Below, one piece after another: positions 34,465-60,659 of a stretch of DNA of 64,000 nucleotides; within the stretch, counting starts at the first letter, position 1; each line of letters starts with the position of its first letter. Under the pieces are notes generated by a model. It did no database searches. It saw only the letters and a list, made by a program, of their open reading frames with translations, and was not told where the DNA came from. This stretch comes from Fragilaria crotonensis. Taxonomy: Eukaryota; Bacillariophyta; Fragilariophyceae; Fragilariales; Fragilariaceae. A program made the position numbers and the translations under genes. The stretch covers positions 1 through 64,000 of the forward strand of contig JAKSYS010000221.1 in assembly GCA_022925895.1 (NCBI GenBank), in the 5' to 3' direction.

Positions 34465-34469
34465 CTGCC

Positions 34470-35034
34470 TAAAGTTTTATTCGCAGTGTTTGAGACTGCA
34501 AACAAGGGCTAACGACGAATTAGTTATCGCAGGAGCGTTTGTACTCTTTGGTAGAAATTTGTTTTACTAATTGTGAGATGTATAAAACATGCAGAAAATG
34601 AAATTGGAATGACTGAATGAGAGCTCTGAAGCTGCACTTTCCTTGTTCTCTCTGTTCTCTGGTTGTTCCTTGATTGTTCTTTTGTTAGTTCTTCAGAATC
34701 CCATGGTAGAATGGTTGGTTGAAAGATACTGAATCCCAGATGAATATAATGAAATATAAAGCATGTAAAATGTAGATTTGATGATGCACCAGTTTGTGTT
34801 CTCTTGTGATGTCGGCTGGCGATTGTGCTTCCCATTTATGTGTCCGCGGAACATCCGACAATGACCGAAGAACAATGACGCAAACACTTACGAGAACGCG
34901 AACGCGAAGCGTGACTCAATCGTGCGAAAGAGAACCGAACCGTGACTCACAGAAACTTTGGTTGACGAACGGACGGAAGGAGAGGTAGAGTATGATCCAC
35001 GACGGTAGACGCCAATACTGTATCTTTTCTTTTA
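34470..35034 (-). repeat. 3' LTR of copia element 2
   Basis: Starts taaagttttattcgc and ends ttttctttta on the plus strand, flanked outside by ctgcc. Near-identical to 40546-41111. Frames inside it are LTR shadows, not genes. Confidence 0.92.
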
Positions 35035-35079
35035 CTTGTGTATCAGATTCCTCATCACTCGCTTGACGAAGTCCTTCGA

Positions 35080-38000: not shown

Positions 38001-39177
38001 AGCTGGTGCAGGTTGGAACTTGGCACTTGGCCAACTTCTTCGGGAGCAAACCGCGCTTGGCCATGCTTTGCATTTTGGCAGCCGACATGTGATTCAACTT
38101 GTGATGCCAGCGAAGGAACTCTGCAGCAGGGTTCTCATGAACGGCAGTGTCCTCTTCGTCGTCAATGACGACTGGCAAGTCGGTGCGGTCAGTAGCATCA
38201 AGGTCAAATGAGACTGGTGTATTTGGAGGATGACTCAATCCACCCCTTGGGATGAGGTATCTGGTGCTTCTGGTTGATGAAGAGGTTCCTGACAGTCTTC
38301 ATTTTCATCATCAGGGATGAGATGGGTTTCCATGTTAATGATTGGGTCATCCTCATCCAGTCCCACCTCACACATGTTGCAGAAGGTGTTGAAAGCCTTG
38401 TAGCTTGGAGCAGTATACATGGTTGCAATGTTGCCACCCCTGGTTCAACCTCACTGTTTTGGTGTGCTGTCTTTGGGCCCAGTGTAGTTGAATGCTGTCA
38501 TGGTATGTTGCACACCATGTGCCTCTTGGCAAAGGCTTGAAGTCTTGGGCAGTCTGGGCCCAATGCTGTGGAGACAACAGCTTTGAAGGTGAATCCTTGA
38601 CATAGAGCCCATGTGGAATGACAATGTCATGAGGAACTCCTGTATCATCTTCAATTGACCACTTGATAGTCCCTGAGTAGATCTCAGTAAGTGTTCCACC
38701 CAACCCCTTCAACTTTTTGTTGACCCTCTTGAGAGGAGTGATGAAGTCTTTCTTGTCATTGGAAATGCAATAGGATGCACAGTTGTCAATCCTAATAGCC
38801 TTGGAATCAGTATCAAAGCTTGCTGCTTCATCTTGGTGGGCTTGCCTTGCCTTCATTGCAATGACTGCTGTCAGGCAGTTGAGTTGGGTGGAATTCCTTT
38901 TGTATCTTGGCCCTTTGCCCTTCATCCAAGGTCTTGGTCTTGGTTGCATGCTGAAACTCCCATCATGCATCCATGACTTGACATATTCAGACACTGTGAC
39001 TGGGTGTACCTTCCAATTTCTCACCTTTCCTGAGGCCTTGCTTGAATTTGGATTGGTAACCCACACCTGAACAGATTGGACAATGGCCTCCAAGCCATGG
39101 CTGAAGAGGTAGCACACGTCTGCGCACCATCTCTGCCACCACTTGAAAATCCAAAGCCCAATGAACACGCAGTCCAT
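35080..39177 (-). pseudogene. Interrupted pol polyprotein of copia element 2
   Basis: The piece 39177-38368 carries the protease, with an unusual active-site word Asp-Asn-Cys-Ala-Ser (near 38770-38785) where most copia elements have Asp-Ser/Thr-Gly. The piece 38238-36934 is integrase, with the His-His...Cys-x-x-Cys zinc finger and the catalytic core. The piece 37336-35624 is reverse transcriptase with Tyr-Thr-Asp-Asp (near 36075) instead of Tyr-Val-Asp-Asp. The piece 35589-35080 is RNase H, with the Ser-Thr-Thr-Glu-Ser-Glu-Tyr segment. The integrase-to-RT break near 37340 looks like one missing G in a GG pair. Two further breaks lie between 35590 and 35660. All domains are otherwise well preserved. 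Confidence 0.88.
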
Positions 39178-39199
39178 TGGGCGTCCCCATCATTCATCA

Positions 39200-40408
39200 T
39201 CATCGGAGATGGCTGCGCGCTTTGGCCAGTTTCATGCTAGGCTGCTTGGAGTCTTGACCCTTGTTGCCTTGATCCTTCTTGGGACCACCTTTGAAACCAA
39301 TACCCTTACAGTCAGAAGGCTTGTGTCTGGTCCACCTGTTGTGATTGGGGCACCAATGGTAGTCCTTGCCTTCAACAGTCTTGGACTGCTTCTCTCCTTC
39401 CTTGGGATGAACATGTACCCATGCTGGAAGATCCTCAACTCTGAACTTGCCTTTACCCTTGTCTTTCTTGTTTCCCTGCTTGTTGTCCTTCTTTCCTCCT
39501 CCACTGGACTTGCCACTTGCTGGATTAGGTTTCTTCTGATTGGACATGAGGGTTTTGACTTGGGATTGCAAGGCAATGATAGTTTCCTCCTCTGTAGTCT
39601 TGAGGCACCACTGCTCTGACTCTTTCCTGGTTTTGAACTTGTTGAGAGCCCAGTCCATGAGCTGTTGATACTCAACTTGGCCACCTTCTTCATAGAAGTC
39701 TTCCTTCTTCTTGATGTAGTCCACAAACTCAGCATCCTTGCAGGCCTTGTAACCTTTGAACAGATTCACCAGGAGATCTTGGGTTTGTTCACCCCTGGCA
39801 GAGAGCTTGCTGACCAATCCAAGGACATAGTCATTAAAGAGTTCAATGTCAGAATCGATATCGCGCATGGCATGATCAAGACTGGAGAGCTTGGTCGGAC
39901 ACTAGTGATGGTGGCTCTGGTATCCACATGTGAGACCATGATAATGACCTTGAGGAGGACTGGACCTGATCCTTTACCTCCAAAGATGAAGGGATGAACA
40001 TTGCCTCTGGTCCTGACCTGCTTTTGAGCAGCATCAGTCAAAGAGTTCATGAGACAATGGTACATCATGAAGGAATCTTGAGCTTCCTGGCATCCTCATG
40101 CATGTAGGTGAGGGCATGGGCTCTGACCTCCTCATAGGAGATCTCTCCATAAGACTCAATGAGATCCTTGGAATTAGCCACATTGCCTTGAATGGGAATG
40201 CTAAGAATGTTGAGCCAATCAAAGACTATGGATCTATCCCTGGTTTGATCAAGGAAGAGCTGAAGATTGTCTGACTTGCAGTCAAACTTGATGGACAAAG
40301 CCTCAGTACCAGACTTGAAGAGCTTGGCAGCAGCCTGCTCAGAGTAGTTGAGGACATCAGGATTAGCAAAGGCTGGAGCCAATGCAAAATGAGGGCTGGA
40401 GCAGCCAT
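39200..40408 (-). pseudogene. Interrupted gag of copia element 2
   Basis: Starts at the ATG near 40408 and continues in three frames through pieces 40427-40065, 40068-39766 and 39868-39200. The last piece has a Lys/Gly-rich basic stretch followed by a Cys-His cluster (Trp-Cys-Pro-Asn-His...Trp-Thr-x-His...Cys), which takes the place of a classic CCHC knuckle. No long hydrophobic segment like that of element 1 gag is present. Confidence 0.75.
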
Positions 40409-40545
40409 GGTTGACCTTGAAGCTCAAATGAAGTACTTGACTTGAAATGATCCTGATTGATCAAGGAAAGCAGCACTGGGCTTGCAGGTGAGCTTGAAAG
40501 GTCAAAGAATAAAGCACTTGGCTTGTACTTAGCGCAGAGGAAGCG

Positions 40546-41111
40546 TAAAGTTTTATTCGCAGTGTTTGAGACTGCAAACAAGGGCTAACGACGAATTAGT
40601 TATCGCAGGAGCGTTTGTACTCTTTGGTAGAAATTTGTTTTACTAATTGTGAGATGTATAAAACATGCAGAAAATGAAATTGGAATGACTGAATGAGAGC
40701 TCTGAAGCTGCACTTTCCTTGTTCTCTCTGTTCTCTGGTTGTTCCTTGATTGTTCTTTTGTTAGTTCTTCAGAATCCCATGGTAGAATGGTTGGTTGAAA
40801 GATACTGAATCCCAGATGAATATAATGAAATATAAAGCATGTAAAATGTAGATTTGATGATGCACCAGTTTGTGTTCTCTTGTGATGTCGGCTGGCGATT
40901 GTGCTTCCCATTTATGTGTCCGCGGAACATCCGACAATGACCGAAGAACAATGACGCAAACACTTACGAGAACGCGAACGCGAAGCGTGACTCAATCGTG
41001 CGAAAGAGAACCGAACCGTGACTCACAGAAACTTTGGTTGACGAACGGACGGAAGGAGAGGTAGAGTATGATCCACGACGGTAGACGCCAATACTGTATC
41101 TTTTCTTTTTA
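40546..41111 (-). repeat. 5' LTR of copia element 2
   Basis: Copy of 34470-35034, promoter-side LTR on the minus strand. It is followed inward on the minus strand by cgcttcctctgcgc where the primer binding site should lie; no standard tRNA 3' end is recognised. Flanked outside by ctgcc (41112-41116). Confidence 0.92.
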
Positions 41112-43329: not shown

Positions 43330-44585
43330 CTACTCCTCCTGCTCATCATCTTCATCCTCCTCCTGTTTCTTGCAAACATTGGCGGCATACTGGTCACTGA
43401 CCTTGCACTGGACTCCAACATAGTTGGTAATGTTTCCAGAGGCATCGCGCAACGCAGCAATGAAGAACTGATTCCAAAAGGTGGATCCGTCGACACGGTA
43501 ATTCAACAAGCAGACGGACATGTCGGATCCCTCCTCGATGGAACGGCGGATTTTTTCGACGGCCTTGGGGTCGGTTTCGGGACCTTGCAAGAAACGGCAG
43601 TTGCGGCCCAACACTTGGTCGAGAGTGTATCCTGTTAAATTGAGGAATCCTTGAGTGGCGTAGACAATTGGATTGTCGGGGAGCGACGGGTCGGTAACGA
43701 CAAAGTTCTGCTGTGCGGTCTGCAAGGCCTTGATGAAGGAGAAATCCGGGTCATCGAGGACCTTGTTGGCGTCCATGGAGGAGGTGGCAATGAGGCCGAC
43801 CTCGGCGTTCGCGAATTGCTTGCCGAGCAATTCATCGGCCTCCGCGGCACCGAGATGAGAGCGGATGGACTGACGGAGCTTGTCATTCTCGTCCTTCAGG
43901 AGATTAACTGACTGTTGGAGAGACTCGAGAAGGAACTTCTTGCGGATGCGAGAGCGCTTGGCATGTTCGCGATTACGTTCGCTGCGTAAGGGAAGAGGAA
44001 AGGTGAGAATACGAGTGATTAAAAGCTGCGATCGCATGCAGGTGTCTGATCGTGGATCAAGTCATGACTAATGACTGTAACGTACCGACGCTCGACCTTC
44101 TGCTGTTCCGACATTTTACGATCGCCAGACTTGGATGTTCCGGACTTTCGCTTCTTCATGGCATTCATCATTTCCGGCGTTGCGTACTGGAGATGGTGTC
44201 GTTGCTGTGGTGGTTGCTGAAAGGGGACCATATTGGCCGTGCCCCCTGACGCCGGTGCAGCACCCATGGTGAGGGCAGGCTTGCCGTCTTGATCGAGCTG
44301 CGTGGTGGCAATTCCTCCCGCCAAGGGTACAGGAACGGGAAGTCCGTCGGGTCCGATGCGGGAGGCAACGGTGGCGACTTGGGCCTCGCCTGAAGGGAGC
44401 ACTGTCACGTCGGCGCCCTCGTTCTGAAGGTCACTCAAAAAGACCGTGTCTCCGTCAGGTGTGAACATGACGTCTCCGAAGATGTCATCGAGGTTCAGCG
44501 TTGCTGGAGTTCCTCTCTGGGCGACCGCAGCAGAGGCAGCGGAGGACATCCCAGGTTCCGTGGGTGCAAACATTGGAGCGGACAT
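43330..44585 (-). CDS. AUREO1: Aureochrome, blue-light bZIP-LOV transcription factor
   Basis: Exon 1 is 44585-44086 and exon 2 is 43981-43330; the 104-bp intron (GTACGT...ACGCAG) splits an Arg codon of the bZIP basic region. The product has 383 residues. The N-terminus is Gly/Pro/Gln-rich. The basic region is Arg-Glu-Arg-Asn-Arg-Glu-His-Ala-Lys-Arg-Ser-Arg, followed by a leucine zipper. The C-terminal LOV domain keeps Gly-Arg-Asn-Cys-Arg-Phe-Leu-Gln-Gly, with Cys295 positioned to form the flavin adduct in blue light, so it should sense light (unlike AUREO2, which lacks flavin binding). DNA is bound through the zipper. Ends with an acidic tail. Aureochromes control light acclimation and the cell cycle in diatoms. 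Which AUREO1 isoform it is cannot be decided. Confidence 0.93.
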
Positions 44586-46339
44586 GGTGTCAATTGAACA
44601 GTCAACAAATGAACTGCGAGAATCAACAATCAACCAAGTTTCGGATTTTTTTATATCGATGTCTGTCGATGACCTCTATCCTTTTCTTCCCATCATGTTG
44701 ATGGTAGAGAACTGGCAAACCCCGAACGCGGCACGCGGCACGGTGTCAACTTTTCCAAAGGATCCAACCTTCAAGATCAGAGACATAATGTGTCTGGCTC
44801 TGCTCCCTTTGTTCTGCGTCGCTAATATCAGAACGTCATGATGAGAAGCGTCTACTAGTAGAGGTAGTGCTAAGTAATGATGCGTCCAACTCCAGTACGA
44901 TAGAGCTGATAGAGTATCAAGTACCAATTACTCGTACACATGCAATGACTGCACATGGATGGCAATAGTACGGAGCCCGCAGTCGCCTGCCATCAAAGAC
45001 CATAAATATTTAGCAAACTCATTCGTAGAGTGGTGTTTTCAGAGTATTTCATGTTTCATGACTCCAGTACAGTACAGTACTCCAGACTCCAGTACCTTGT
45101 ACCTGTGGTACTCAATTCGCAATGACAACATGACAACCATACAGCACAGGGCCTACGAGACTTCTGGTCGCTGTCATGAAAACAAAAAATGAAAATTCGG
45201 GAATTTAACCAAAACGTCGTCAGATTTGCTTTCCACGGAACAACAAAAACTTATAGCTGCCAAATGCTGACACTTGAGTTTGAATATTATAACAAACAGT
45301 GTCAAGATTCTGAATTATGCAAGACAGAGCCAAGAGCGGGACCCCCTGCTCTTGAACCCCAGGTCAATTCAGTTGTCCAATATAATTTTATATGACCTGC
45401 TGACTTGGCAGTTACTGCAATTTGTCCATGGCTAACCTCTGGAGGCGGAGCAGCATAAAGGCGAAGGTTTAAATGCAAAAATCAAGCACAGGAGCACGAT
45501 ACTAAAATGACCATAATGAAAAGAATCTGTGATGCATGTTTGATAAATAATGGACAGACAGCTCATTTATTTTCAGAGCTCAAAGAATTAATTAGATTAT
45601 GCCAAGGCAGTAAAAAACCGCAGTGTATGTGAAGAATGTTCTCCAGATAGTGTAAATTGCAATAATACAATCCTTGCCAAGCAATGCTGTGTAGAGATAT
45701 TCCAGAACCCTGCTGTTGCTGTCATCACAAGGTGGTATATGGTGACTTTTTTAAAAATAAAATGGATTCAATACATATGGTTAGTGGATGGGGATTAATA
45801 AATATAAAATATTTATGACTAACATTTTAACGTGATATTTCACAGTTTAGTATTATACTACACCTTTAAGAGAATACTCAACAAACATCAAAACAAAAAA
45901 TTAATTAAAACAATATTTGTCGATTGCAATCACAATTTGTTTTGTGTTTCAAATTTGTAAATTGGTTTACATGGCTTTTTTGGTTTTTAGCAACGTTATA
46001 CAGTAAATTTGAATCACAATGTAAATTGAATGAATCAATTTAAATGGGTATCTGTCACCATATTATAGTCATTTATAACAATAAAAGATAAATGCTATAA
46101 CTTTATCTGATGAAATGAAATTCTTTAAATTGTGCAGAGTCGTTGTTAAACGTTGCTTACTAGCTTGAAATATTGATTGCTTGACAACAATATGTGTATA
46201 GTTTAAGTTTCTATGTTTAACAATGACGCTGCATGTCGACATCTCCACATTCAAAAGTGGAGTAATCACTCGTTGCGGTTTCGTTTCAGAATGTTATGGT
46301 GATGATCATAATAATTGTGCACCTCAATAAATTGCGTTG
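44586..46339. other. Spacer, very AT-rich toward the island
   Basis: The first 500 bp has the GTAC-rich composition of host spacers (44900-45110). From about 45480 the sequence turns strongly AT-rich, with no coding sequence, which seems to mark the edge of the accessory island. No element ends could be fixed. Confidence 0.5.
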
Positions 46340-47616
46340 TTATTCCAAATCCCAACATGCTTCCACTGGTTCTAATGCTTCTGCCTGCTCTCCATCGGAG
46401 GTGTCTCGACTTCCTTCACCATTTGTTCCTCTCCTTTTCAGTGCAATGCAGTGATTGAGCAGTTCACGCTCCATATCCATGGCTTGTTCACACGTGCGAT
46501 CAGCCTTCACCAAGTGATAGAATTCGTTGTACCTTGCCATTCCTTCGCGGCTCCATCCACCATACTTGCAGTGGCCTTTTTTTGCGCAGTATACTTGCCT
46601 TTCTCCCTTTCCCTCTTGGACTTTTCCTGCTGCCGGCGCCGCTCCTTGGTTGTGGTTCTGCTGGTGGGGTCTCGTGCCGCAGTTGTTCCTCTCGCTGAAA
46701 TGCCTTGAGCCACTTCTCAATATAGTTGTCGTAGAGAAGGAGAGCGAAAGCCTCGTCGCTGATGGTCACCAACTTGCCGTGTTTTGTGGCCGAGCTCGTC
46801 GCCTGCGACACCAATTGCTTACTCTTTTGTACACCCCAGTGCTTCAGGCCACAAACGCACTCAAGAAATGTTCCATAGAACCAGAGGAATGCTTTTTCTC
46901 CTTTCCGTACTTGCTCTCCTCATTTTTTGTAATTCATCAATTGAGAACACATCCATTCTATCTTCCTTGAATTGTTTTAGTTCTCTCATCATGATGTTCT
47001 TCCCCGCCTGCTCGCATGTGCTCCTCTTGCTGTTCAACGCATGGTTAAAAACACTTTCATATAACATCTGGAATTTCACACGATCTCGGTTTGCCACACA
47101 CTCGTGGTCCATCACCTCCTTGAAAGCCTTACCAAACATGTGTTCATTGCTGATAAACTTGACGACTCGAAACATATGTTTTCTGACGTAAGTTGTGACC
47201 CTATCTGCAATGTTCTCCTGGTGTTTTTCCGACATGGACGATTCTTTTGCTGACATACCTCTTACTCGTATCAACCCCTCCAAATTCTGCGCAGCTCCTG
47301 CTGACGATGTTCTTCCACGTTTTGCAGGAACAACATAGTCGTCATCATCATCGTCATCATCGGACGAATGTAATTCCTCGGCACCCCGACAGGGAAGCAT
47401 TTTGTCCAACTCCCTATCCCACTCTTGTTCTTGGTCACTATTTTCTTCTCTTTGCCGCTTTCCTCCTTTTGACGATTCGACAATTTCGTCTTCGCCACTG
47501 CCGCTGTCTTCATCCTCATATAAAGATTCGGAGTCTGATTTGTCAGATACAGTTCCGTTGTTCATGGCTTCAGTTACTCTGTTGTAGTAGTATACAATTG
47601 TGGGAACAAGTTTCAT
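46340..47616 (-). CDS. Unknown protein of a repeated diatom family, interrupted
   Basis: ATG at 47616; about 425 residues when two one-base breaks are bridged. The N-terminal half is acidic (Asp run near 47345-47370) with a Lys-Arg-Gln-Arg patch. The middle is helical, with Phe-Lys-Glu-Val-Met-Asp. After a break near 46880 it continues with Phe-Tyr-Gly-Thr-Phe-Leu-Glu-Cys-Val-Cys-Gly, then Asp-Glu-Ala-Phe-Ala-Leu-Leu-Leu-Tyr. After a second break at a T7 run (46575-46581) it ends with Trp-Ser-Arg-Glu-Gly-Met-Ala-Arg-Tyr-Asn. From memory, similar proteins are repeated in diatom genomes; I know no assigned function. It diverges from the dioxygenase-like gene at 48698. It may belong to the same mobile unit, but no shared ends prove this. 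Confidence 0.6.
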
Positions 47617-48697
47617 CGCTTGCGGTACACAAGAAAAGTTTTGAGCGCGAAGCACTTTTGTTCACAACTCCCATTTAAATTTGAAGAGTTGGGCACACAT
47701 GTTGTTTGTATGCTTGACACAGAGTCAATTTGAATGGGTGTGTCGACAGAAATTATTACTAAAGGCACTGTACAATTGTTTGTGGCAAGCTACCGTTGTA
47801 AATAAATATTGCTGTGTCGGGGATTGAAGGCTTACTAGTTATATTCCTGCAATATATCATGATGTGTATACGTTTATATGGCAATATTTTGCCGCTAATC
47901 GTTTTTGTAACCGCCACGATTACTTCGTGGGAATACTCCGATGTTTGCGTATCATGTACACTCACTCGGTAAGATGAAGATGCGCATGTGCTTGGTATAT
48001 ATGATTTGATACTATGTGCTGCGATGCGTCAGTTCTTATTACTAAGGTAAATTACCGTTATCATCTTAAGTACTGGCTGGCTGGTGATGCATTCGACTTG
48101 GAATTTCTGTATGTGACAAGAATGTGTGCCTGAATACATAACGATTTAGCACATCTATGGCTACGGTAGTTAGGGTCTTGCTGCCATGGCAAAATGAAGA
48201 AGATGAAAAAATAAATGACTAACACATGTTTATTTGTCTTTGTACTTAGACAGTTTTGAGGGGGGAAGGAAATTTTTGGCCTGAAGTCCCACATGGGCAA
48301 CGCGTGCCTTGCACGTAGTATTGGTTATACTGGAATCGACGTGAAATGCACTATTTTGCACGAGTTGCTTTCACAACAATTTATGGACATCCACACTGCT
48401 GTTGCACTCTTTGTGCCCAGCACATACGTGAGGTATACCACATTCATGCTTGTTGTCGTCTGAAGAGGGGAACTGCTTGCTTTTCTGGCGTGTTGGAACT
48501 CTGGTACAATTGCCTTCTCCCCAGACAGGGATTTGCAAATCTGTCCTTTGTGACGACGTGCTGCCTTATCACTCAACGTGAAGAGGGGAATTGCTTGTTT
48601 TTCTGGCGCGTGCGAACTCAGGATTGGTTGTTTCCCCAGACAGGGGTGAACAACTTGTCGTTAGTGATCGCGTTGCCGCCTTATCGTCGGTATCATC
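47617..48697. other. Divergent spacer with a tandem repeat
   Basis: About 1.1 kb between two divergent genes. It holds the 118-bp tandem repeat (48461-48690) next to the dioxygenase start. No other feature recognised. Confidence 0.5.
48461..48690. repeat. Two-copy tandem repeat of about 118 bp
   Basis: Both units begin tgaagagggg (48461 and 48579), continue with ttttctggcg and ccccagacaggg, and end near gccttatc (48570 and 48685). The copies have diverged at many positions. The array ends just before the ATG at 48698, so it probably lies in the promoter or 5' leader. Confidence 0.75.
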
Positions 48698-50769
48698 ATG
48701 TTTGCAGATCCTTCACGAGATCGCGCCAGGATATCTAGCGCGCGGCGTACGCTTCCGGCGCAGAGCTCTGTTTCAGCCATGGGACGCAATCCGCGTGCGG
48801 TTGGGGTTGGTGCTGCAGGCCATGACATTGCTGGCAGTTCTCTGCCTTTAGATCGGACTGCTGAAGGATTCCTTCCGTCAAAGGAGCGTGTACTTTCACT
48901 GTTGATGCAGGTACTGTTTTTTGATCAGGAGGATTATCGCGAGCGGGTTGCGAAAGCCTTCAGAGATGCCGTGCTGAAACCTCCTCTTCCTCCAATTGGC
49001 GGCGATGATGACAATATCTGCGGCTTTCCTGTCTCATTCTTTCGAGCGGCCGTGGATTCTGTGGGATATCGCATCTGCGACTTCTATCGCATCAATAAGC
49101 TATCAGATATGTTCCACGAGTCCCATGTGAAGCATCTCCCTGGGGAATCTGTCTGTGAAGTGTTTTTCATGGATGTTGTGCTGAATCGTGCAATTGTTCC
49201 CACTACAAGCGAGATTAACAATGGCAATGATGTTCGGGTGATGAGATGCTTCAAACCGGATGATCTTGATGACTCTGTGGACTATCAGTTCCGTGCGTTG
49301 ATAGCTTTCATCCCCAATGCTGGTGTCTTCTACTGCTCATGTGATCGACGACGTGCTGACGCAGGTGTTGAAAAGACGCTTGTTCCTCACGACATGAGTT
49401 GGCTTCGCCTACATCGCAGTGAAGTTTTGGACTCTCAACAACGTCTCGTGTTCCTATGTACACCATTGGTGATGGCCGTTTTGTTAAGCAACTTCATTGT
49501 GGTGGCGGTTCTGATGGCCTTCCAGTTTCGGTGTGGCGCATGACCTACAATATTCTTTGCGACAAACGTGTGATCATTCGTGCCAATCAGTGCGCTGATC
49601 AAGACGGCCCCATGTTGCCCCCCAGATGTTATCTCAGGAGGTATTGGCACTGGAATTCAACTATATTCTTGCGGGATCTAAGTCTGCCCGACTCGGCGGT
49701 CGGCACTACGCTTCGGGTACAGGTTACTTTGACCTTCCATCTTCATGCTTGGTGTTGGATCCCGTGGTTGATCCGATGGTAGACGTTGTGATTGATGATG
49801 CACCGTGTGGGACCTCGGTGGATCGGCAAACTGTGGTGAGGGTGAGGCATACCCTCATGCTGAAAACAGATCCTGTGCCGATGGACGACATGAAATTGAG
49901 AATAGCCCGTCGTGCGTCTTTGCTTTTGAAGATCACGCGGTGTAACACTGCGATTCGTCGGGGCATGCGAACAACTAGTGGGGTCAGGAATACGGGGGGG
50001 TGATGTTGGTAACATGTACGCCATTGGCATGCGTGTGGAGGGAGATGGGGCTACCATGATTCCTTACGCTGCAAACGAAAAGGTTGACGAACTTGTCCTG
50101 CGAGACATGGTTGCTGCTCTTTGTTGCCTTGGCCGTCTGTGTTACCCTGACTTGATGCACTTGATCAAGACTTTGGAAAGCGACTCTGGTGTTCCGATGA
50201 TGTCTCCTATGGACGGAAAGGATGGGGATTGGGTTGGGCGCACTATTGACATGAGTGTCAACCTCGGCAACTCTTCACACTTTGATGTCAATGATTGTTC
50301 GCAGGGCTTTGCTGTGTGGACGGAAGAGATGCCCGGCAAAGCCTCTAATTGGTACTTCATCATGCCAAATGTGTTTGGCACGCGAGCAGATGGCAAACCT
50401 TTCTCTGGGTTGGCTGTGCGCCTCTATCACGGAGTTGCCATCAGCTGGGATGGGCGAGTGCTTCGGCACTGCACTTCCGTTTCCAAACCCGACGGCGAGG
50501 ACAACGCCGAAGTTTTTTCGGGTGGCGGTCAAAGGTTTGACAATCACCTTTACGGAACGTTCACGGCATGCAAAGAGAAGGTTGTTCGGGCGGGCAGGGT
50601 CAATGCATGTGCTGCCATCGTATCATCGTCCACGACGTGCAAGGATGATACGATTGGAGGAGTGACCACACCTTTTGATGATGAGCTCAATCTGGGGATG
50701 GAATTAGTAGGCGTTGGTGCACCTTCACAACAACGGAAGAAAAAGAAGAGGAGAAGAAAGGAGTACTAA
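48698..50769 (+). CDS. Putative 2OG-Fe(II) dioxygenase, diatom repeat-associated, interrupted
   Basis: ATG at 48698; about 690 residues when three shifts are bridged. The first frame runs to about 49450 and continues in other frames through 49456-49640, 49626-49990 and 49978-50769. The last shift lies in a G7 run (49994-50000). The C-terminal part has the features of a double-stranded beta-helix oxygenase: His-Phe-Asp at 50278-50286 as a His-x-Asp iron site, a strand with Trp-Tyr-Phe-Ile-Met-Pro, and a distal His in Arg-His-Cys-Thr-Ser at 50467-50469, with a Lys seven residues later as a possible 2-oxoglutarate contact. The protein ends in a basic tail. It is convergent with a Plavaka-like transposase. 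TET/JBP dioxygenases accompany KDZ transposons in fungi, so a role in modifying DNA is conceivable, but no substrate can be read here. Confidence 0.6.
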
Positions 50770-50821
50770 AGTTTAGAATTTAGCTTGCCGTATGTAACCT
50801 ACCATTGTACTTGTTGAGTAT

Positions 50822-51110
50822 TCACTCGTCGTCGTCATCGTCGTTATCATCCTCGTTCTTGTTGTCATCATCGTTATCATCCGCGTTGTTGTCATCGTCG
50901 TCATTGTCCTCATCATCATCATCGTCGTCGTCGTCCTTGTCATCATTGTCATCCTCTTTGTCATTGTCGTCGTCGTCATCGTCATCGTCATTCTTGTTAT
51001 CATCGTCATCATTGTCATCCTCCTGCTCATCGTCTTCGTCATCATGCTGCTCGTCGTCCTCGTGAACTTCGTTGTCTTCGTCATCCTCCTCCTCGTATTC
51101 AGACTCTAAG
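50822..51110 (-). repeat. GAT/GAC microsatellite encoding an Asp-rich tail
   Basis: Imperfect array of tcg/tca/tcc trinucleotides on the plus strand. It reads as about 90 residues of mostly Asp, Glu and Asn at the C-terminus of the transposase. Likely variable in length. Confidence 0.85.
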
Positions 51111-54100
51111 CTTTCCTCCTCGTTATTCTTGCAACAATACTGTACAAAATGATCCCATGCTGATGGCCAGCATTCCTCTCTTCTTCGGAATAGGAACAAA
51201 TACTTGTCTGAGTCTCTGTTCCCGAAGTCCGGAATCCCAACTGTGGGAGCAAAGATGCTCCCAACCTCGATGAGGTAAATAGATACCAGCATATTGCCAC
51301 GACCCTCTTCTGGTTCCCTATGAAGTGTGTACAGGCCGATCATATTATTCGGAACAGCCGGATCTGCATCTTCTGCATCGTACGATTCCAAAACCGCATA
51401 CATTCCAGGTTTGAGATTCTTTTGTAGTTTTGTGCGAATACGAGTATTATCTGGGAGATGACGAAGGTCCACAAAGGTGTGAATGAGTCCTGGCAAGGGG
51501 AAATCAAGATTCCAATTGATCATCGCATGATCGCACCAACGTTTCCATGATAGTTTGGATGGCCTCTGTACCGATCTCCTTCCTCAGAGATAAACTCCGT
51601 GAAGCATTGCACAGACTTTGCCAAACCCCTGGGGACATCTGGGCAACAATATTTCATAATAAATTTGGAGATACGAGATGGAAGCCTGTTTTTAGGCGAA
51701 TCATCTGTCGCGCGGGGAGAGTTCCACGCAAACATGATGTCATCACCAGCTGAGGAAGGTTTCTGCGATAGAACAAACCGACGACCAGCAGCACCAGAGG
51801 AAGTTAAAGGGATTGGAGGCTTCTTGGCCTCAAACTCGTCCACATCATTATTGGCAACCAAGATTGCCAAATCCTCATGGTACCGGTGTGCTGCTTGTCT
51901 TGTAAAGGATGCAACACGCTTCTGAGTATTGCGAGATGTATTCTTTGCAAGTGGAATGTGTGCAGATTCTGCATATGATGAGTTTACCACGTCGGGGACA
52001 CCATGATCAAGTATATCCTCACTGATGTGAAGCGCAAGGTGCATCTTGATTGTATTGTTCCTCATTCCCGACAACCGTGGGCAAATATTGGCAACATTGC
52101 GGATTAGCCATCGAACACCAGTGGCCAACCTTATCACATGACTACGCCTTATTGTCGGTTGCTTCATCCATTGATGCCATTGCAGCAGACAAGAAATGAT
52201 GTGAATCCAATCTGCGGTGTGCTTGGGACACCCTAGTTTAGGCAGTGGGGGTGGTACATACTTCACTTCCTCCTGCTTCGCATCGTGCATCGCAGCATCA
52301 TTCCCTGCTTCCACAGTTGCCGACGGCCGTTTCTGTTGTCCCTTTCTTTCTGCAGGCTTTCCGTTCTCGTTCTTCTTCCATCCCTTTCCATTCGCAGCCT
52401 TGTTCTTTGACTCTTTAGGAGGGGGAAAGATTTGTCGGAAACTACTAGTGTGCAATGCGAAGAGTTTGACTAGGAGACATCCTGGTATCTCATGACCCAT
52501 CAGATTAGATCCCGTGGAAAAACCCTTCGGAAAATTTGTACGTGGTAGGTCGCGGTCACTTTTCCGTACCATGGCACTTCCAATGTCTGCGCAAAGAGCG
52601 TCATAATGTTCAAGCGCAGCCGATTTCTTCCCTTTCTTTGCGCCAGCTTGGTGTGCAAAGGATTCAAGGCAGTACTTGAACCACCCAAGTGTGATCAAGT
52701 GGAGGATTTCACCAGGACAAGCTCCAAAAATTCCTCTCGCGTTGTGCTGGCCAAACCGAACTTTGTTAAAGCCGTTAACAACATAATTTTGTGATAGTGC
52801 GCGTAAGGATTCAACATCACCCTCTCTCACCAAACCTCCAACATGACTTGGCTTCCTGTGGCGGTACACAGATTTTGAGTAACCAGTCATCTCTGTGGGA
52901 CATTCGCATGCACGGCATAGTTGTTTGATTTTTGCAAATCGTGCGGTGTAGTGCCCGCAAAGACGATCGTGACCCTCCGTGTCACCAATTATGAAAGGGA
53001 CAAAGGGGTGAAATACGACGTCGTGGACAGTCTTCTTGTATTGAAGCTTCCACTTGAAGCCTTTGTCCTGCAAACTTAAAAACCTGATGCCGAAAGAATA
53101 AATGCAATCTGCATGTGATACTCATTCAACATGTATGTAGGCCAGGTGACGCCTTTTAGGTTTTAGAACATTGCTCACAGTCGCAACACCAGGAGGAAGG
53201 TCATTGGGTGCCTCATTGTAATCAACGTTGAGGTCAACCTTCTGAGCCTTACGTGAGGCACTCCCGTGATAGATGTAACCCAAAATTCGCATTGCAATGG
53301 GTAAACGGCGAAACTCATGCTTCAATAACCCGTGAGAAATTGTGATTGGCTCCATCTGGAGTCTACCGGAAGGTCAATGTGCGTCTTGTCCATTGCAAGC
53401 ACACAAGGAAGTATCATGTCAGACTGCGGATTCTTCACCAATTTCTTATAGGTTTCTCGATAACACCGACCACTGTTGATGTCACCAATTACTGATGTCC
53501 TCGCATCAGGCACAGCAAATGGATCCCCTGTTCATGAAACATAAAACACTCGTCCTTATTGAGGAACGGCATGACAGCAATGACGCAAACACTTGGCGTG
53601 CATCAAATATACCATCGTAACAATACGCTTTGAATAGGGCAGATACAACTTCTTCTCCTTGGGAACCAAACCATGCATGTTATAACGACTGAACAACATC
53701 TTTGTAACCGTCTCACGTGATGGCTGGCAACTGGTCTGAAATTGGTGGCCATTTTCATTTGCTTTCGCGGCCCAGTTCAGTATGTACTTAAACGCAGAAA
53801 GTGGCGCCTTCAAGTCTTTTAGGAGTTGAAGCAACTCAATATGAACCTTCTCTTCACAAGAGAATTTGGCCAGCGAGGATAATGGATTTGACTGAAGGCG
53901 GAGGAGTTCCTCGTACAATTCAAGGACTCCTTCGTCAGGGTCTGTCGTTCCGTTCTCAACCAAATCAGGTGGCGTCGTCAACGACTCTTCCTCACCAAAA
54001 GGATTGACGTCATCGTCGTCGTCCAATTCATGCTCATCGGGGTCATCGTCACCATCTAGTGCTTCAACAGAAGCAGCACGACCAGCATCCTGAACAGAAC

Positions 54101-54389
54101 TGAATTCGAATGGTGCAGAAAATCGTTGACGACTGTGACCCTCCTGGTGTCCACCAGTACTTACTTGTCCTGTGAGGATATGTGAGGACAACGAAGCGTG
54201 GTTTTGCGCGGCCTTGGCAGCACTCCTGTTAATCAAAGTACCACCAATACCAGCAGACAGATCAATTGTGCTCTTCCGAGAAGCATAAATGCTGTTGCAA
54301 ACAAGATTGTGATTCAAGTGTACCTGGATTCGCTTGAAGGGTTTGTGACATCCGTCACACAACGTAGTAGAGGATGTGCGTGTTGGCAT
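50822..54389 (-). pseudogene. Plavaka/CACTA-like DNA transposase, interrupted
   Basis: A protein of over 1100 residues read in pieces: 54389-53556, 53513-53322, 53355-53122, 53073-51520 and 51523-50822. The N-terminus has a Cys-x-x-Cys...His...Cys zinc-finger-like motif. Then come a Asp-Ile-Asn-Ser-Gly motif, a Met-Asp-Lys-Thr-His segment that would carry the first catalytic Asp, and Leu-Gly-Tyr-Ile. Further on are Gly-Asp-Thr-Glu-Gly-His-Asp...Cys-Gly-His-Tyr with a following Cys cluster, and finally His-Pro-Asn-Tyr-His-Gly followed, one frame over, by Trp-Cys-Asp-His-Ala-Met-Ile. This series recalls Plavaka-type transposases of the CACTA group. Several one-base shifts (for example T5 near 53084) break it. 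The C-terminus is a long Asp-rich tail. No terminal inverted repeats were found. Family assignment by pattern only. Confidence 0.6.
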
Positions 54390-56935
54390 GTGAATCCTTG
54401 TAAAGAGAGAAGCAATGCACAGAATTGTCGAAGATTCAACAATGAACTCAAAAGATCACTGGACCTGTTGAACAAATGCCAGAAATACGGTAAAAGTTTT
54501 AGACAACGCCATTCACTGTGCCTCGGAAACCTAACTGGCGAGTATGCCTCAATATCAGTGAATTTAGAAAACACCAAGTCAAATTTTTGAAAAAATGGTT
54601 GCTGCAGTGAAAATCAATTTGTTATATCCATCACTTTGTTGATTCAATCAGAAATATATTTATAGTTTATACTTTTTTGTTGATATTGAACCATATAGAT
54701 TGATTATAATTCGAGAATTCACTGATAAAATTTGATAATAGAAATATTTTAGTATTATATCATTATAACATGTAGAAAAAACCAACTATATATAACTATT
54801 GACTATTTAAGTCTAAAAGTAACCACTTTAGTAAACATAAACCGTCATTAATGACTACATGTATATCAACTCACAAAAACCCACCTTGTGATGCGTAATA
54901 AATGACTGCTAGATGAAATGAAGTAGCAATAGAGAAACAGCTGGCAAATAGGAGTTACCTTGAGGCGTGTCCATGTCGAGAGAAAAAACTGGTCTGCAAA
55001 ACTGACCCTTAGGCCATTTTTTTCTAGACCGTCCATATTTCTCTTCAGGAACAAGGTGTTACTTGAAAACAAACTAGTTTGAACTGACCAAACTTTATGT
55101 TTCAAAGTTGACTTGATCAGCACTCTCAGCCTTATCAACCTACCGCAACCAAAGTCATTGAAAATCATGGCTTGCAATATTTCGAATCAATGAGGGATAA
55201 AGTAGTAGTACTGTCCTTTGATTGATTCTTCTTGCTCCCATTATCTCTGATGGCATCTTTGATTAATCTGTCACTGATTTCTTGTCAACATTCATTCAGG
55301 ACACTCTGTTTTCAGATAATACACGCTCATATTGAGTTTCTAATCAATGAGTTCCTTGGTATTGCTTGGTAAACATTGGATTGCTCTGATCCATAGCATC
55401 CCAGAGCTGCTTGGCAAGGTCCATGCAATTGTTGATATACTTCTTAAAACTTGCTTACAAAGGCGTATAACTGTTGTCAAGAGAAGGCCTCTCTTGAAAA
55501 GACCTTGCTGCCTGCAACCTTCCTCAATTTGTTGTGGCGGCATGGCACCCCACTTGAATGGAGAGCCAGATGTTCCTTGATTCATGGCAATTGGTGTCTT
55601 GGGCAGGCACTGTTGCAAATTTGGAATTGTTTTGACCTGCCGTTACCACTGTTAATTGTGGGTGACTTCAATGATTTGACCCTAGAAGGAAAAAATGTTT
55701 CACTATTGTTGGATTGATCACCATTTTGGTCATCTTTCTTGAGAAGTCTGATCAAATAGCATTGTCATTGGCATCACAATTGTCACAACAATCAGCAGCA
55801 ATCATGCCCTTAGCTAAGTTTCACAAATAACCATTCCCCTGACGTACCAATTATAATCATGAATGGTCTGCCCTTACGGAAGTGTCCCACAAAAGGCACT
55901 TTCAGCTTCTTTGACACATGATGCAAGTGCCTTCATCCAATCCTGTAGAACTTCACATGCTTCATGTGCCTTAATACATACTCCTAGTAGTATCATGTTT
56001 ACAGAATAAACAGATCAGGGTCAAGCCCTGATGTACCAAGAGTTCGATATGCCACAGCTACGGAATGCCAAACTACCGTCAACCATGTTCACGCTACTGG
56101 CAACTGAACATTACCACTGTAGGGTGAAGGTGAACCTGCACTGGCCGATAAGTTCATGTCCATGGTACATTTTCTTATATCATAGTAGTTGTACTCGGAG
56201 TACTAAGTACTAAGTACCACGTACTTGTACTGTTGTACTGAACTCCAGCCCATTCAGGGAGACACAGGGGGGAGTTGTCGTTCCTAACGGTATGATACAC
56301 ACCATGCCGCGTGCTACGAGTTACCATGTTCGTACTGGAGTACTGGTGTACCTGGTACCAGGTACGATTGTCCTCAGATTATGACATCGAAAATGACACG
56401 AAGACGAAACTTAATTCGAGAATAGTTCGTACATACTGTTGATTGTTGATCATCAACATAAAAATGAATACTACCGGTAGTAAACTGTAAATACTGCGAC
56501 GCTGCAAAAACGTGTTCCTGGCCACCAATCGGTGCAATAGCTGTACTTATGTTTCGTGCATGGTACGTGTACTGTCGCAGACAGCTTCCTTCGGGATTCG
56601 GATTCGTTCCGAGTATTGAGTACGTATGTCAATACTCTAGGTGCAGGACTGATCATCAACAGATTTTCAGGGTGACGTGGTTGCACGCAGATGGCACCGG
56701 AGACATATTTAGCCGTTCAGAACAAGAAGTCGCGAATACCCAGAATTGCGTACGGGGTAACGAATGTATCTTTCTCTGTCATTCCCTCACATTTCCTACC
56801 CGTAGTGGCGCTTCATCTAAGTTGACCTTCGCTACATCTGGCAAGGTATTTTGATCAGAATCAATCCATCAATCCGCAGGACGCACCAATGTATTCACAA
56901 CACATTCCAATACAGCAACCATTTGTTAAGAAACC
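54390..56935. other. Spacer, AT-rich then GTAC-rich, no gene supported
   Basis: From 54590 to 54870 the DNA is very AT-rich, mirroring 45480-46260 on the other side of the island. Between 55330 and 55620 the minus strand has gag-like wording (Leu-Trp-Asp-Ala-Met-Asp), possibly an old copia relic, too degraded to call. 56170-56370 is rich in GTAC words, like other host spacers. No gene recognised. Confidence 0.45.
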
Positions 56936-58485
56936 ATGACTGAACCCACGGCAACGTCCGGAGCGTCGTCCCGCAGCTCGTGCTCTCCGTCAACAAAAAT
57001 CGTAATGAATGGCGATGAGGTGCATTCGCAACAGCGACTCACAAATCAGCAGCAACAGCTTCACAATCTTAATCGGACGGCGTTAGCAATTAGCGTTACG
57101 ACAGGATCGAGGGGGGAGCCTGGAGGTGTCAACCCCAACTGTTTTGCAGCACAATATCAACAGTCTGGACCATCCCTCTCGATGGGGGTGGAAGCGATGC
57201 TGCAATCCTCTCAACGGCACGGACTGCATGGTACCAGTGCCATGGTATTTTGTGGAGGAGGCATCACGTTACCCGAGAAGAGACAGATCGATCCTCGATG
57301 TTTAAAACTAGGCTCCACTGGATCTCACAACCAGTCGCAATTAATGCCTTCGACAATGGCCACACATCAGGCACGAAAAGTTGTCACTATCATATCGGCA
57401 CCCCAGACGAAACCGAAAATTGTAACAGCTGCTCCATCGCCTTCTGATGTGATAATCGGTATCCATACCAACAATACCAAGGTTTATTCTTCCGCCTGCC
57501 GAGCGAGTGTCGACGCCCATCAACTTGCCTTAACAAGGCGTGTAAATAGTGCTCCCGGTCTCGCCGGGCGAACCGGACCATCGGACCTTAGCGTCGATCG
57601 AAGCAAGTTCAAGTACCAAAAGGTTATTGGAGGTTCATCGACCAATGCCACCAACGCAAGACGAACGTCCTTGGTACGCAGTTGCCCGGGTTTCGAGGGT
57701 CCTGGTTGCCTTCGTGATGACTTTACTAACATACCGTTTTTCGTTTCTCGAAGAAGGCACAGAACGAACTGTCTCCTCAAGTATTCCTCGACACCATGCT
57801 CAAATCTCGAGGATACAGCACACAAAATTTTTGCAGTCTTGAGGGTGCCTACTATTGCAAACCGACGGCTCTTCAACAGGCGAGTTACGGCATCAGACTG
57901 ATCGAAGCGATTCGCCGATCGGATGAAATCGTTTTGCAAAAAATGCTTCAGGCTGGCCTGTCACCCAACCCCTGCAATTCATTCGGAGAATCAATCGTGC
58001 ACATGCTGTGTCGTCGAGGAGACTACAAGCTCCTCAAGTTGTTCAAAGAACACGGATGTTCTCTCCAAGTTACAGACGATTTTGGTAGGACGCCACTGCA
58101 CGACGCTTGTTGGACTACGGAACCTCCTTTCGACATTGTTGATATGATCTTGACAACTGACAGACGACTGCTGCACTTGGTTGATTGTCGAGGATCGTCG
58201 CCACTCTCGTATGTCAGCCGCAACAATTGGGAAAAATGGATCGCTTATCTTCAATCGCGTGCCGACACGTACTGGCCACCTCGCAATGTGGCGAAAGTGG
58301 GCGACGAACCCGCACCACCTTTCTGCTGGGAAGCACAACACTCTCGACCGATACCAGATCCTCCTAATGCCATCTCAATCGAGGCGGCAAAGACGCTCGT
58401 ATCGTTGGGGGAGGTTAGTGAAGGACCTTCGGGTGCTATTGTATCGGTTGCACCAAAGGTAATGACAAGTGCAACGATAAAATAG
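56936..58485 (+). CDS. Ankyrin-repeat protein, paralogue of 29409-31391, one frameshift
   Basis: ATG at 56936. The first 280 residues are disordered and Ser/Thr/Gln-rich. The frame then changes at a T5 run (57736-57741) and continues to 58485, about 516 residues in all. The second part has Leu-Lys-Ser-Arg-Gly-Tyr-Ser-Thr, then Gly-Leu-Ser-Pro-Asn-Pro-Cys-Asn-Ser-Phe-Gly-Glu and Phe-Gly-Arg-Thr-Pro-Leu-His-Asp (about three ankyrin repeats), and a closing Trp...Tyr-Trp-Pro. These match the C-terminal block of 29409-31391 almost motif for motif. No polyQ tract on the scale of its relative. Likely a protein-binding regulator; function unknown. Confidence 0.75.
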
Positions 58486-58837: not shown

Positions 58838-60659
58838 CTAGTACATATTATCTCTCTGTCTAGGGGCGCATTTAATGATATCGTCAACGCGGAGAATCAT
58901 TTCCGCTGCCTCGGACGCGCTCAACAGCACCTGCAACTTGGATTTGAAAGACTCCATGATGCCAAGTTCTTTCATATCACCAATCGTACCCTCATACATG
59001 TTGAGTCCGTACGTCGATTTTCCCTGAGCATGTGCCGCCCGCAGCTGCGTGACCAGTTCAGCCGAATCGTACCCTCCATTGTCCGCGACAATGGCCGGGA
59101 GCTGCCGAAGCGCTTTGGCAAACGCGGCCATGGCCAGGGCCTTTTTGCCGGGAGTTTCTTCGGCAGCCCGGTCGACGGCTTGGGCCATGAGAATTTCAGT
59201 GCATCCTCCACCATAAACCGTGCGAGGGTCCTTGACAGTCGCGGCCAAGATGGAGAGGGCATCGTGCATGGAGCGCTCGGCTTCGTCGAGAAAGTGTGAG
59301 GAGGATCCGCGCAGCACAATCGTGCAGGCGGCACCTGCCTTGCAACCGCCGAAGCGAATGACCTTGTCCTCACCAATCATGACTTCTTCAATCACATCAC
59401 ACTCGCCCAAGGTGACCAACTCAGGGTGGTCAAAAGTGCTCACCACTTCGCCTCCAGTGACTGCCGCCAACCGCTCGACACCATCAAAGTCGGCATGTTC
59501 GATAGCCATGATCCCATTCTCAGCAAAGATAGATTCTGGGAAATTGTAGATCAACTGCCGATTGATAAAGACAGTGCAACCGTGTTTCATGATTTTCTCA
59601 CACTTGAGTCGCATTTTTTCCTTCTCCGCCAATTCGATTTCTGCTACCTTGTTCATGCTGTCCACTCTGACACGAGAACCGTAAATTTTGATCTTGTCCG
59701 TATCCATGGAAGTGTTGGCAATCAAAATCTTGCAATTTTCCAAGCGACGGGGTTGTCCTACTCCAATTTGCTTGTCCAATAGGAATCCATCCTCCAGATA
59801 CGAGTCCTTCAAACTGCCACCCGATCGCTTGATTATTTGAATGTGCTGCAAATCCCCACTCCCCTTCAACCTCAACACGGCATCCACCGCCAAGGTGGCA
59901 AAGTGTTTCTTTTCATGCGTGAGCAATTTGGACGATAGAGTCGTTTGGGCAATTTTCATCAAATCCTCTCGAAATTTGTCGTCGCTACCATTGTTCTCCG
60001 CTGCTGCTTCCAGCGCCTCCTTGGCCTTGAGTCTTGCCAACCTCCATCCGGCCGCGATCGTTTGTGGATGAATGCGTTGCACCATGACAAGTGCTTCCGC
60101 CTCGCGCAAGAGTTCACCGCACAAGACAGCGACGCTCGTAGTGCCGTCACCGACTTCATCGTCTTGGACTTTGGCAATGTCTACCAAAACTTTGGCGGCG
60201 GCATTGTCAATGTGAATCGATTTGAGAATCGTTGCGCCGTCGTTGGTTACAGAGATTTGGTGATTCGAATCGGGACCAACAGATTGGAGGATCTTGTCCA
60301 TGCCTTTAGGACCAAGGGTGGTTTTAACGAGATCGGCTATAGCAATTGCGCCGACAAAGGAGGAGAGACGAGCATTTTCACCCTGAGAATATGTGCAAGT
60401 GTGGCGAGGTGGGATAATTTGAGAAGTTAAAAATGTGAGCAGCGATTTCGTCGAAAGTTCCCAATTTGTAAGCGAAAAGTATGTCGTTAGGGAATCCGAT
60501 GATCTCCAATGATCGCGTCTTTTTGCAAACTGTGTGCGATGGATCGAGCTGCGCCAGCAGTCATATCTCATACAGTATCACAGCAAGGCGGAACAAAGAA
60601 TGGAAGATGGCACGCACCTTATCGACAGTAGTGCCCTGGTTCATAAAAGCAGCCTCCAT
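58838..60659 (-). CDS. CCT2: T-complex protein 1 subunit beta (CCT2)
   Basis: Exon 1 (60659-60618) encodes only 14 residues; exon 2 (60382-58838) encodes the rest after a 235-bp intron with a GTGCGT donor and a ttctcag acceptor in phase 0. The total is 528 residues, the usual CCT beta length. CCT is the cytosolic double-ring chaperonin that folds actin and tubulin using ATP. The ATP site reads Leu-Gly-Pro-Lys-Gly-Met-Asp-Lys, then Gly-Asp-Gly-Thr-Thr-Ser, then a late Gly-Gly-Gly-Cys. Subunit beta is indicated by [12 protein letters not shown] near the start and Glu-His-Ala-Asp-Phe-x-Gly-Val-Glu-Arg in the apical domain. It diverges from the cofilin gene. Confidence 0.95.

Follow-up and report, generated by a model that had tools for sequence, protein, structure and literature searches.

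The window analysed here, a stretch of 64,000 nucleotides of contig JAKSYS010000221.1, contains two large convergent coding regions, a plus-strand gene with an oxygenase-like motif (hereafter, the cargo gene) and a minus-strand gene that resembles Plavaka transposases, both enclosed in a degenerate DNA transposon. Their reading frames close at 50769 on the plus strand and at 50822 on the minus strand, leaving 52 bases between the stops; a preliminary description of this DNA had recognized the convergent arrangement and counted 53. It had spoken of two large genes, and the coding regions are present, but both are frame-broken in this copy, the transposase into at least three pieces. We consider it practically certain that the pair is one mobile unit, as had been suspected, given the terminal repeats, the target duplications in other copies, the recurrence of the pair and the selection on both genes; the unit is larger than had been stated (Table 1). 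Across the genome searched (62.1 Mb, 881 contigs) the family has moved, its two genes recur as a pair under selection, and the cargo is found on several carriers, including, beyond the preliminary description, a second transposase lineage and a Mutator-like element (MULE).

Boundaries, movement and transposase of the element

Both ends of the element carry a 13-bp inverted terminus, CATCACAAGGTGG, of the form CATCA..TGATG. Comparison with other genome copies places the limit of homology at 45722/45723 on the left (4/4 copies read there) and at 54893-54897 on the right (5/5 copies read). Identical 2-bp target duplications (TC, AT, AA and AA) flank all four of the other copies for which both ends were fetched (C571, C108, C279 and C777, respectively), an outcome with a chance probability of about 1.5e-5. 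Six copies including that of the window differ pairwise by only 0.2-1.1% over ~7.4 kb, which means that the family moved recently. Private changes are commonest in the window copy (39 of the 93 singletons among the six close copies), which is dead, having frame breaks in both genes and no target duplication. Relatives with both genes open exist elsewhere in the genome, among them L033, with 32 bp between the stops, and L028, with 35 bp; open cargo frames of 741, 763 and 1240 residues are present in L028, L029 and L033. Inverted termini were not found in the fetched stretches of L028-L033, which probably stop short of the element ends.

Table 1 Features of the transposon copy in the window
Feature	Position	Strand	Details
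Whole transposon copy, degenerate	45723..54893	.	9171 bp; inverted termini; end of homology to other copies
Left terminal inverted repeat	45723..45735	+	CATCACAAGGTGG
Third open reading frame of the element (acidic)	46861..47655	-	no match outside the close family in the loci compared
Candidate Fe(II)/2-oxoglutarate dioxygenase-like gene, broken	48698..50769	+	frames 48698-49543, 49626-50003, 49978-50769
Conserved core of the cargo protein	49999..50640	+	alignment A2, 15 sequences
H-x-D of the candidate metal triad	50278..50286	+	H101 and D103 of P0001
R160..R163-H164	50455..50469	+	H164 is the best distal-His candidate
Plavaka-like transposase gene, broken	50822..54389	-	pieces 53556-54389, 51520-53073, 50822-51523
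Right terminal inverted repeat	54881..54893	-	reverse complement of the left one

The Plavaka assignment comes from relatives of the window copy. Eight pieces of the window yielded only two weak Pfam matches below the cut-off, neither of them to a transposase, so that the preliminary label of a Plavaka-like transposase holds by way of the relatives and not for the window pieces themselves. The open frame of L028 matches PF18759 (Plavaka) with 31.8 bits (E 1.1e-7; cut-off 26.3), with L029 (22.3 bits, E 9e-5) and L033 (19.7 bits, E 5.6e-4) both falling below the cut-off; among close copies of the window element, C777 (27.7 bits) lies above it and C295 (23.7 bits) below. The genome holds 80 Plavaka matches. 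In L028, L029 and L033 the motifs follow one another in the order IGDTEGHD, C(2)C (CRxC), H(3)H (HLVLH) and YAES. According to a study of fungal transposons (Kojima 2025, PMC12730594), C(2)C and H(3-4)H stand after the second Asp and before the last Glu in Plavaka transposases, and the motif order found here fits that layout, from which catalytic residues may provisionally be assigned. The same source gives PlavakaB elements the termini CATCA..TGATG and target duplications of 2-3 bp, with fungal members bearing TET/JBP genes; the termini here are of that form, and the duplication is 2 bp in 4/4 other copies, the window copy excepted.

Three further observations concern the sequence of the element. 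The C-terminal tail of the transposase (50826-51100) is rich in Asp and Glu and its coding stretch is internally repetitive. An imperfect direct repeat of ~110 bases, its copies ~118 apart, lies at 48461-48685, directly upstream of the first ATG of the cargo gene. Sister copies have ~87 additional bases at 47446-47450, inside the third open frame, compared with the window copy.

Recurrence of the pair and changes of carrier

Searches with P0001, the window frame 49978-50769 whose residue numbering we use for the cargo throughout, returned at least 150 matches in the genome. Among the matches listed, 52 of the 73 clusters of the window's transposase lineage (lineage A) have a cargo gene within 8 kb and 21 have none; 51 of the 52 pairs are convergent, the one exception lying beside a further pair in C160. 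This count uses 91 of 134 transposase rows (the rest being read as further pieces of the same copies) and 143 of 150 cargo rows (seven second pieces were dropped). Queries with L033, which cover overlapping copies, gave 30 paired clusters out of 37, every one convergent, and seven unpaired (54 of 56 transposase rows, part of the L033 cargo rows and one row from the P0001 search). The recurrence on which the preliminary description had staked its reading is thus found inside this genome.

The cargo is very probably common to several transposon lineages. Of three cargo genes examined that lack a lineage-A transposase, those of L079 and L080 are convergent with another transposase, lineage B, that is 22-25% identical to the first. 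Among the matches listed, 25 of 36 lineage-B transposases are convergent with a cargo gene, two are arranged otherwise and nine have no partner, and none of the 35 transposases of a further Plavaka lineage (lineage C, 30-42% identical to B) has a cargo gene. The cargo list behind these two counts comprises 163 places from two queries and may miss a far-diverged partner beside lineage C; B and C were split at ~43% identity to the L080 transposase, with one member assigned to C (C72) showing a single short piece at 62%.

In a third carrier, an open cargo frame of 808 codons (L078) lies within a 7533-bp element with inverted ends of ~485 bp. Among the other genes of this element PF10551 (MULE) is matched with 37.3 bits against a cut-off of 27.6, SWIM is also above its cut-off, and a second frame matches the Ulp1 peptidase family (Peptidase_C48) above cut-off. 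Terminal inverted repeats of ~485 bp were found in C87 and several other MULE copies. Of 61 MULE clusters, 20 have a cargo gene within 8 kb in divergent, head-to-head orientation, one has it on the same strand (where a lineage-B element adjoins), and none lies within that distance of the remaining 40; two cargo places in this count were set by approximate position, and among the 20 pairs one (C798) was placed in that way and one (C511) is a remnant. MULEs make target duplications of 8-11 bp, and in the one copy examined TAGATTAA flanks both sides, the ends of the inverted repeats being ragged. The element resembles the known class of Ulp1-bearing MULEs in its transposase, SWIM finger, Ulp1-type peptidase and long terminal inverted repeats, and differs from them in that the cargo is an extra, divergently oriented gene. 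In C22 and C40 (L023 and L024) a Plavaka carrier lies near a MULE carrier with ~5 kb between their cargo genes, a proximity that could allow cargo to pass from one carrier to the other; C22 and C40 may represent a single segment twice.

Within lineage A the distances among cargo genes and among transposases are correlated (Mantel r 0.67, reached in 0 of 10,000 permutations; 34/34 copies), also after collapsing to 17 copies (r 0.46, 3 of 10,000 permutations), which shows joint descent of the two genes in this lineage. Between lineages the picture is different. The cargo tree (28 rows) splits with support 100 into two main clades, of which the first joins the window-like A copies, the B copies C230, C76 and C137, three MULE copies and two genes of unassigned carrier, and the second joins the A copies C829, C1, C134, C609 and C482 with the B copies C30, C121 and C156; the MULE cargo genes group together (support 100), and many inner nodes are poorly supported (21-48). 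In the transposase tree (16 rows, rooted at the midpoint, with B and C the nearer pair by identity) B is one clade (100), C is one clade (100) and A stands apart (98-100). The B transposases are monophyletic, yet their cargo genes fall in two clades. Parsimony on the cargo tree, counted by eye on the printed tree, requires at least three changes of carrier, in either direction. It would be costlier to assume two old cargo paralogues retained in both lineages. Two cargo genes, L115 (C873:62763-63365) and L116 (C560:48707-49312), form a sister group to that of the window (support 100), and no carrier was found for them among the transposases searched.

For the cargo, the ratio of nonsynonymous to synonymous change (dN/dS) lies between 0.071 and 0.181 in the seven finite comparisons of 12 (six copy pairs), down to a dS of 0.15; four saturated comparisons and one misframed one (window against L022) were excluded, and two of the finite values come from the same pair, compared whole and over the core. 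The single transposase pair gave 0.156. These low ratios suggest that the cargo is retained by purifying selection and is no passenger.

Identity and possible role of the cargo protein

The H-x-D and later His that had been reported in the plus-strand piece are present, and they lie in a conserved core with the majority patterns SxHxDxxDxSxG, W-F-x-P and SWDGRxxRHxT (alignment A2). Across 28 rows drawn from all carriers, 27 have H101 (the other has a gap) and all 28 have D103, R160, R163 and H164; over 34 lineage-A copies, decayed ones included, the counts are 32 for H101, 33 for D103, 32 for H164 and 29 for H151. This conservation makes H101-x-D103...H164 the likely metal triad. H151, 50 residues after H101 and near the spacing of the Naegleria TET protein NgTET1, was dropped as a triad candidate: it is kept in 23 of the 28 rows and replaced by D, N or Y in five, whereas H164 is invariant. 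Two copies have peculiarities of their own. The cargo gene L033:918-4640 (C829) encodes an extra C-terminal part of roughly 500 residues with no Pfam match, and a short tandem repeat at L031:7863-8501 (C609) yields WQRRFVSSQRQ-like peptides in three overlapping frames.

Judged by its H-x-D...H motif, the cargo protein has an even chance of being an Fe(II)-dependent oxygenase. An H-x-D with a distal His also characterizes TET/JBP dioxygenases, a likeness at motif level and hence weak. Several results weigh against an oxygenase, and with the missing target duplication of the window copy (flanks GT and CG) they are the main points to be set against our interpretation. Searches of the cargo against Pfam, PHROGs, NCBIfam and PDB gave no oxygenase match and at most chance-level ones; the 15 core sequences hit three Pfam families at chance level (best E 0.07), Tet_JBP not among them. 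Profile comparison with NgTET1 stayed at shuffle level (50 of 200 shuffles reach the score), and its alignment does not pair the motifs. The AlphaFold2 single-sequence model of the 221-residue window core was unusable (predicted local distance difference test, pLDDT, 32.6), and in alignment A2 no invariant 2-oxoglutarate-binding Arg or Lys could be placed downstream of H164. A fungal 2-oxoglutarate-oxygenase-like fragment, itself matching PF13640 only below cut-off, fared no better against the cargo (195 of 300 shuffles reach the score); that its alignment happened to pair H-x-D and R-H is a lead only. Scans for two short peptide patterns found no cargo relatives in viral contigs or prokaryote genomes.

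We propose, in a reading that we hold to be evenly balanced between right and wrong, that the element is a Plavaka-type cut-and-paste transposon with a selected cargo shared among at least three carrier lineages, the cargo being a putative oxygenase directed against silencing. A more specific version, that an undescribed oxygenase-like family, distinct from TET/JBP by sequence, serves as shared anti-silencing cargo in a photosynthetic stramenopile with at least three changes of carrier, we hold to be rather less likely than not.

The cargo might instead be an accessory transposition protein acting in DNA binding, regulation or synapsis, comparable to TnpA of CACTA elements or MURB of Mutator, in which the conserved His and Asp would be structural or zinc-binding. 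Such a protein is compatible with the lack of oxygenase profile matches, with a cargo dN/dS as low as that of the transposase and with the two-gene design usual in CACTA and MuDR elements. However, an accessory protein tied to one transposase should not serve both Plavaka lineages and a MULE, nor should it be missing from lineage C, the nearest to B (0/35, among the matches listed), and H-x-D and R-H are conserved in both cargo clades. On balance we regard this explanation as possible but doubtful.

It is unlikely that the cargo is a true TET/JBP base oxidase, kin to the PE, PU and AG types of fungi and acquired by horizontal transfer, even though it shares the H-x-D..H layout and fungal Plavaka elements with TET/JBP have the same CATCA..TGATG termini and 2-3 bp duplications (PMC12730594). 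No cargo scanned gave a Tet_JBP match, NgTET1 similarity does not exceed that of shuffles, and the fungal PE type found on Plavaka has H-x-E rather than H-x-D (PMC12730594). A genome search with PF12851 (Tet_JBP) was empty as well, but its control searches were equally silent. The dioxygenase of the preliminary description therefore stands as a motif, whereas TET/JBP membership is not supported, because libraries, PDB and the TET profile gave no match and the structure model failed. Finally, that neighbouring repeats merely cluster by chance or were duplicated in the assembly, at which the decayed window copy without target duplication and the possible origin of near-identical copies as assembly or segmental duplicates might hint, is very unlikely in view of convergence in 51/52, 30/30 and 25/27 pairs on many contigs (the first two counts overlapping in copies), the termini with their duplications, and the cargo-free lineage-C transposases (0/35, among the matches listed).

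If the cargo is an oxygenase, we lean towards an anti-silencing role, by analogy with fungi. Its targets would be the transposon's chromatin or modified bases in its DNA, and the element could then be expressed or excised despite host methylation, as proposed for TET-bearing fungal transposons. The genome encodes C5-methyltransferase domains (13 matching pieces, some of which may be contaminants), and among the close copies C-to-T type singletons affect 16 of 712 CpG sites and 16 of 2753 other C/G sites; transitions are thus 3.9 times commoner per site at CpG (p 1.9e-4), which fits CpG methylation. The idea that the cargo counters silencing by protecting CpG sites predicted less CpG depletion in carriers, and this prediction failed: median observed/expected CpG ratios are 0.77 in lineage A (23 segments) and 0.745 in lineage B (13), lower than the 0.914 of the cargo-less lineage C (16 segments; p 0.004 for A, 0.017 for B). 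The cargo accordingly gives no visible protection from CpG decay, a further point against our proposal. The lower ratios may reflect heavier methylation of the carriers, a gene that is not protective, or differences in codon use or age, which these data do not separate.

Surroundings of the window copy and known systems

The preliminary description had located the pair in an AT-rich island far from host genes, and neither part holds. GC content over 48-54 kb is 0.47-0.50, with 0.39-0.43 only near the edges, and host-type genes lie close to the termini: on the left, a bZIP-PAS frame (43330-44037) at 1.7 kb, a distance that shrinks to 1.1 kb if its first exon is the neighbouring frame 44019-44633 (without Pfam match), and, on the right, an ankyrin frame (57796-58485) at 2.9 kb and a chaperonin gene (58838-60571) at 3.9 kb. 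The bZIP-PAS frame is compatible with an aureochrome and would thus point to a photosynthetic stramenopile; the stramenopile host that had been assumed agrees with this frame, which is not proof.

Elsewhere in the window, the minus strand of 34467-41109 carries a Copia-type retrotransposon (RVT_2, E 2.6e-42) with 567-bp long terminal repeats that are 99.8% identical. Its body is nearly free of CpG (observed/expected 0.0-0.39 in 500-bp bins from 35500 to 40499), and the bins starting at 34500 and 40500 reach 1.13 and 1.05. The element is young by its terminal repeats, yet its CpG loss looks old.

In fungi, TET/JBP genes occur on 11 transposon lineages in three groups (Kojima 2025, PMC12730594); the function of these base-oxidising genes is stated there as not experimentally validated, and section 4.2 argues the anti-silencing rationale for fungal TET-bearing transposons. 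The closest known counterpart, from that article, is Agaricomycete PlavakaB, with the same C(2)C/H(3)H transposase, CATCA..TGATG termini, 2-bp duplication and a second gene with H-x-[D/E]..H. The elements described here differ in their stramenopile-like algal host, in a cargo without detectable TET/JBP similarity that has H-x-D instead of H-x-E, and in bearing it in most copies of two transposase lineages. As with fungal TET/JBP cargo, one family sits on several unrelated lineages and the cargo and transposase trees disagree; unlike there, a MULE is among the carriers, MULE/MuDR being absent from the 11 fungal lineages of PMC12730594. The Naegleria TET-like dioxygenase (PDB 4lt5) shares H-x-D and a later His with the cargo, with no profile similarity above shuffles.

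Among stramenopiles, oomycetes have HarbingerS and MuDR elements with SET genes, according to the introduction of PMC12730594; these likewise are DNA transposons with an epigenetic-enzyme cargo; compared by description only, that cargo is a histone methyltransferase and the present one an oxygenase-like protein. The words diatom, stramenopile and algae do not occur in the text of PMC12730594, nor does the word dioxygenase in that of a paper on Ectocarpus transposons that reports giant KDZ and EnSpm elements (PMC12477816). Our search of the open-licence literature found no description of such a gene on stramenopile transposons; what looks new is the cargo family, its occurrence in an alga-like host and its carriage by a MULE.

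The presence of the carriers and of a cargo-less Plavaka lineage in one genome provides a natural control for comparisons of methylation, expression and copy number. There is a real chance that such a cargo was invented separately here. If the more specific version of our proposal is true, it would imply an independent, non-fungal origin of transposons equipped to erase marks on DNA or chromatin themselves. With another, apparently unrelated family of cargo in a different supergroup, anti-silencing cargo would look like a solution that recurs and not like a peculiarity of fungi.

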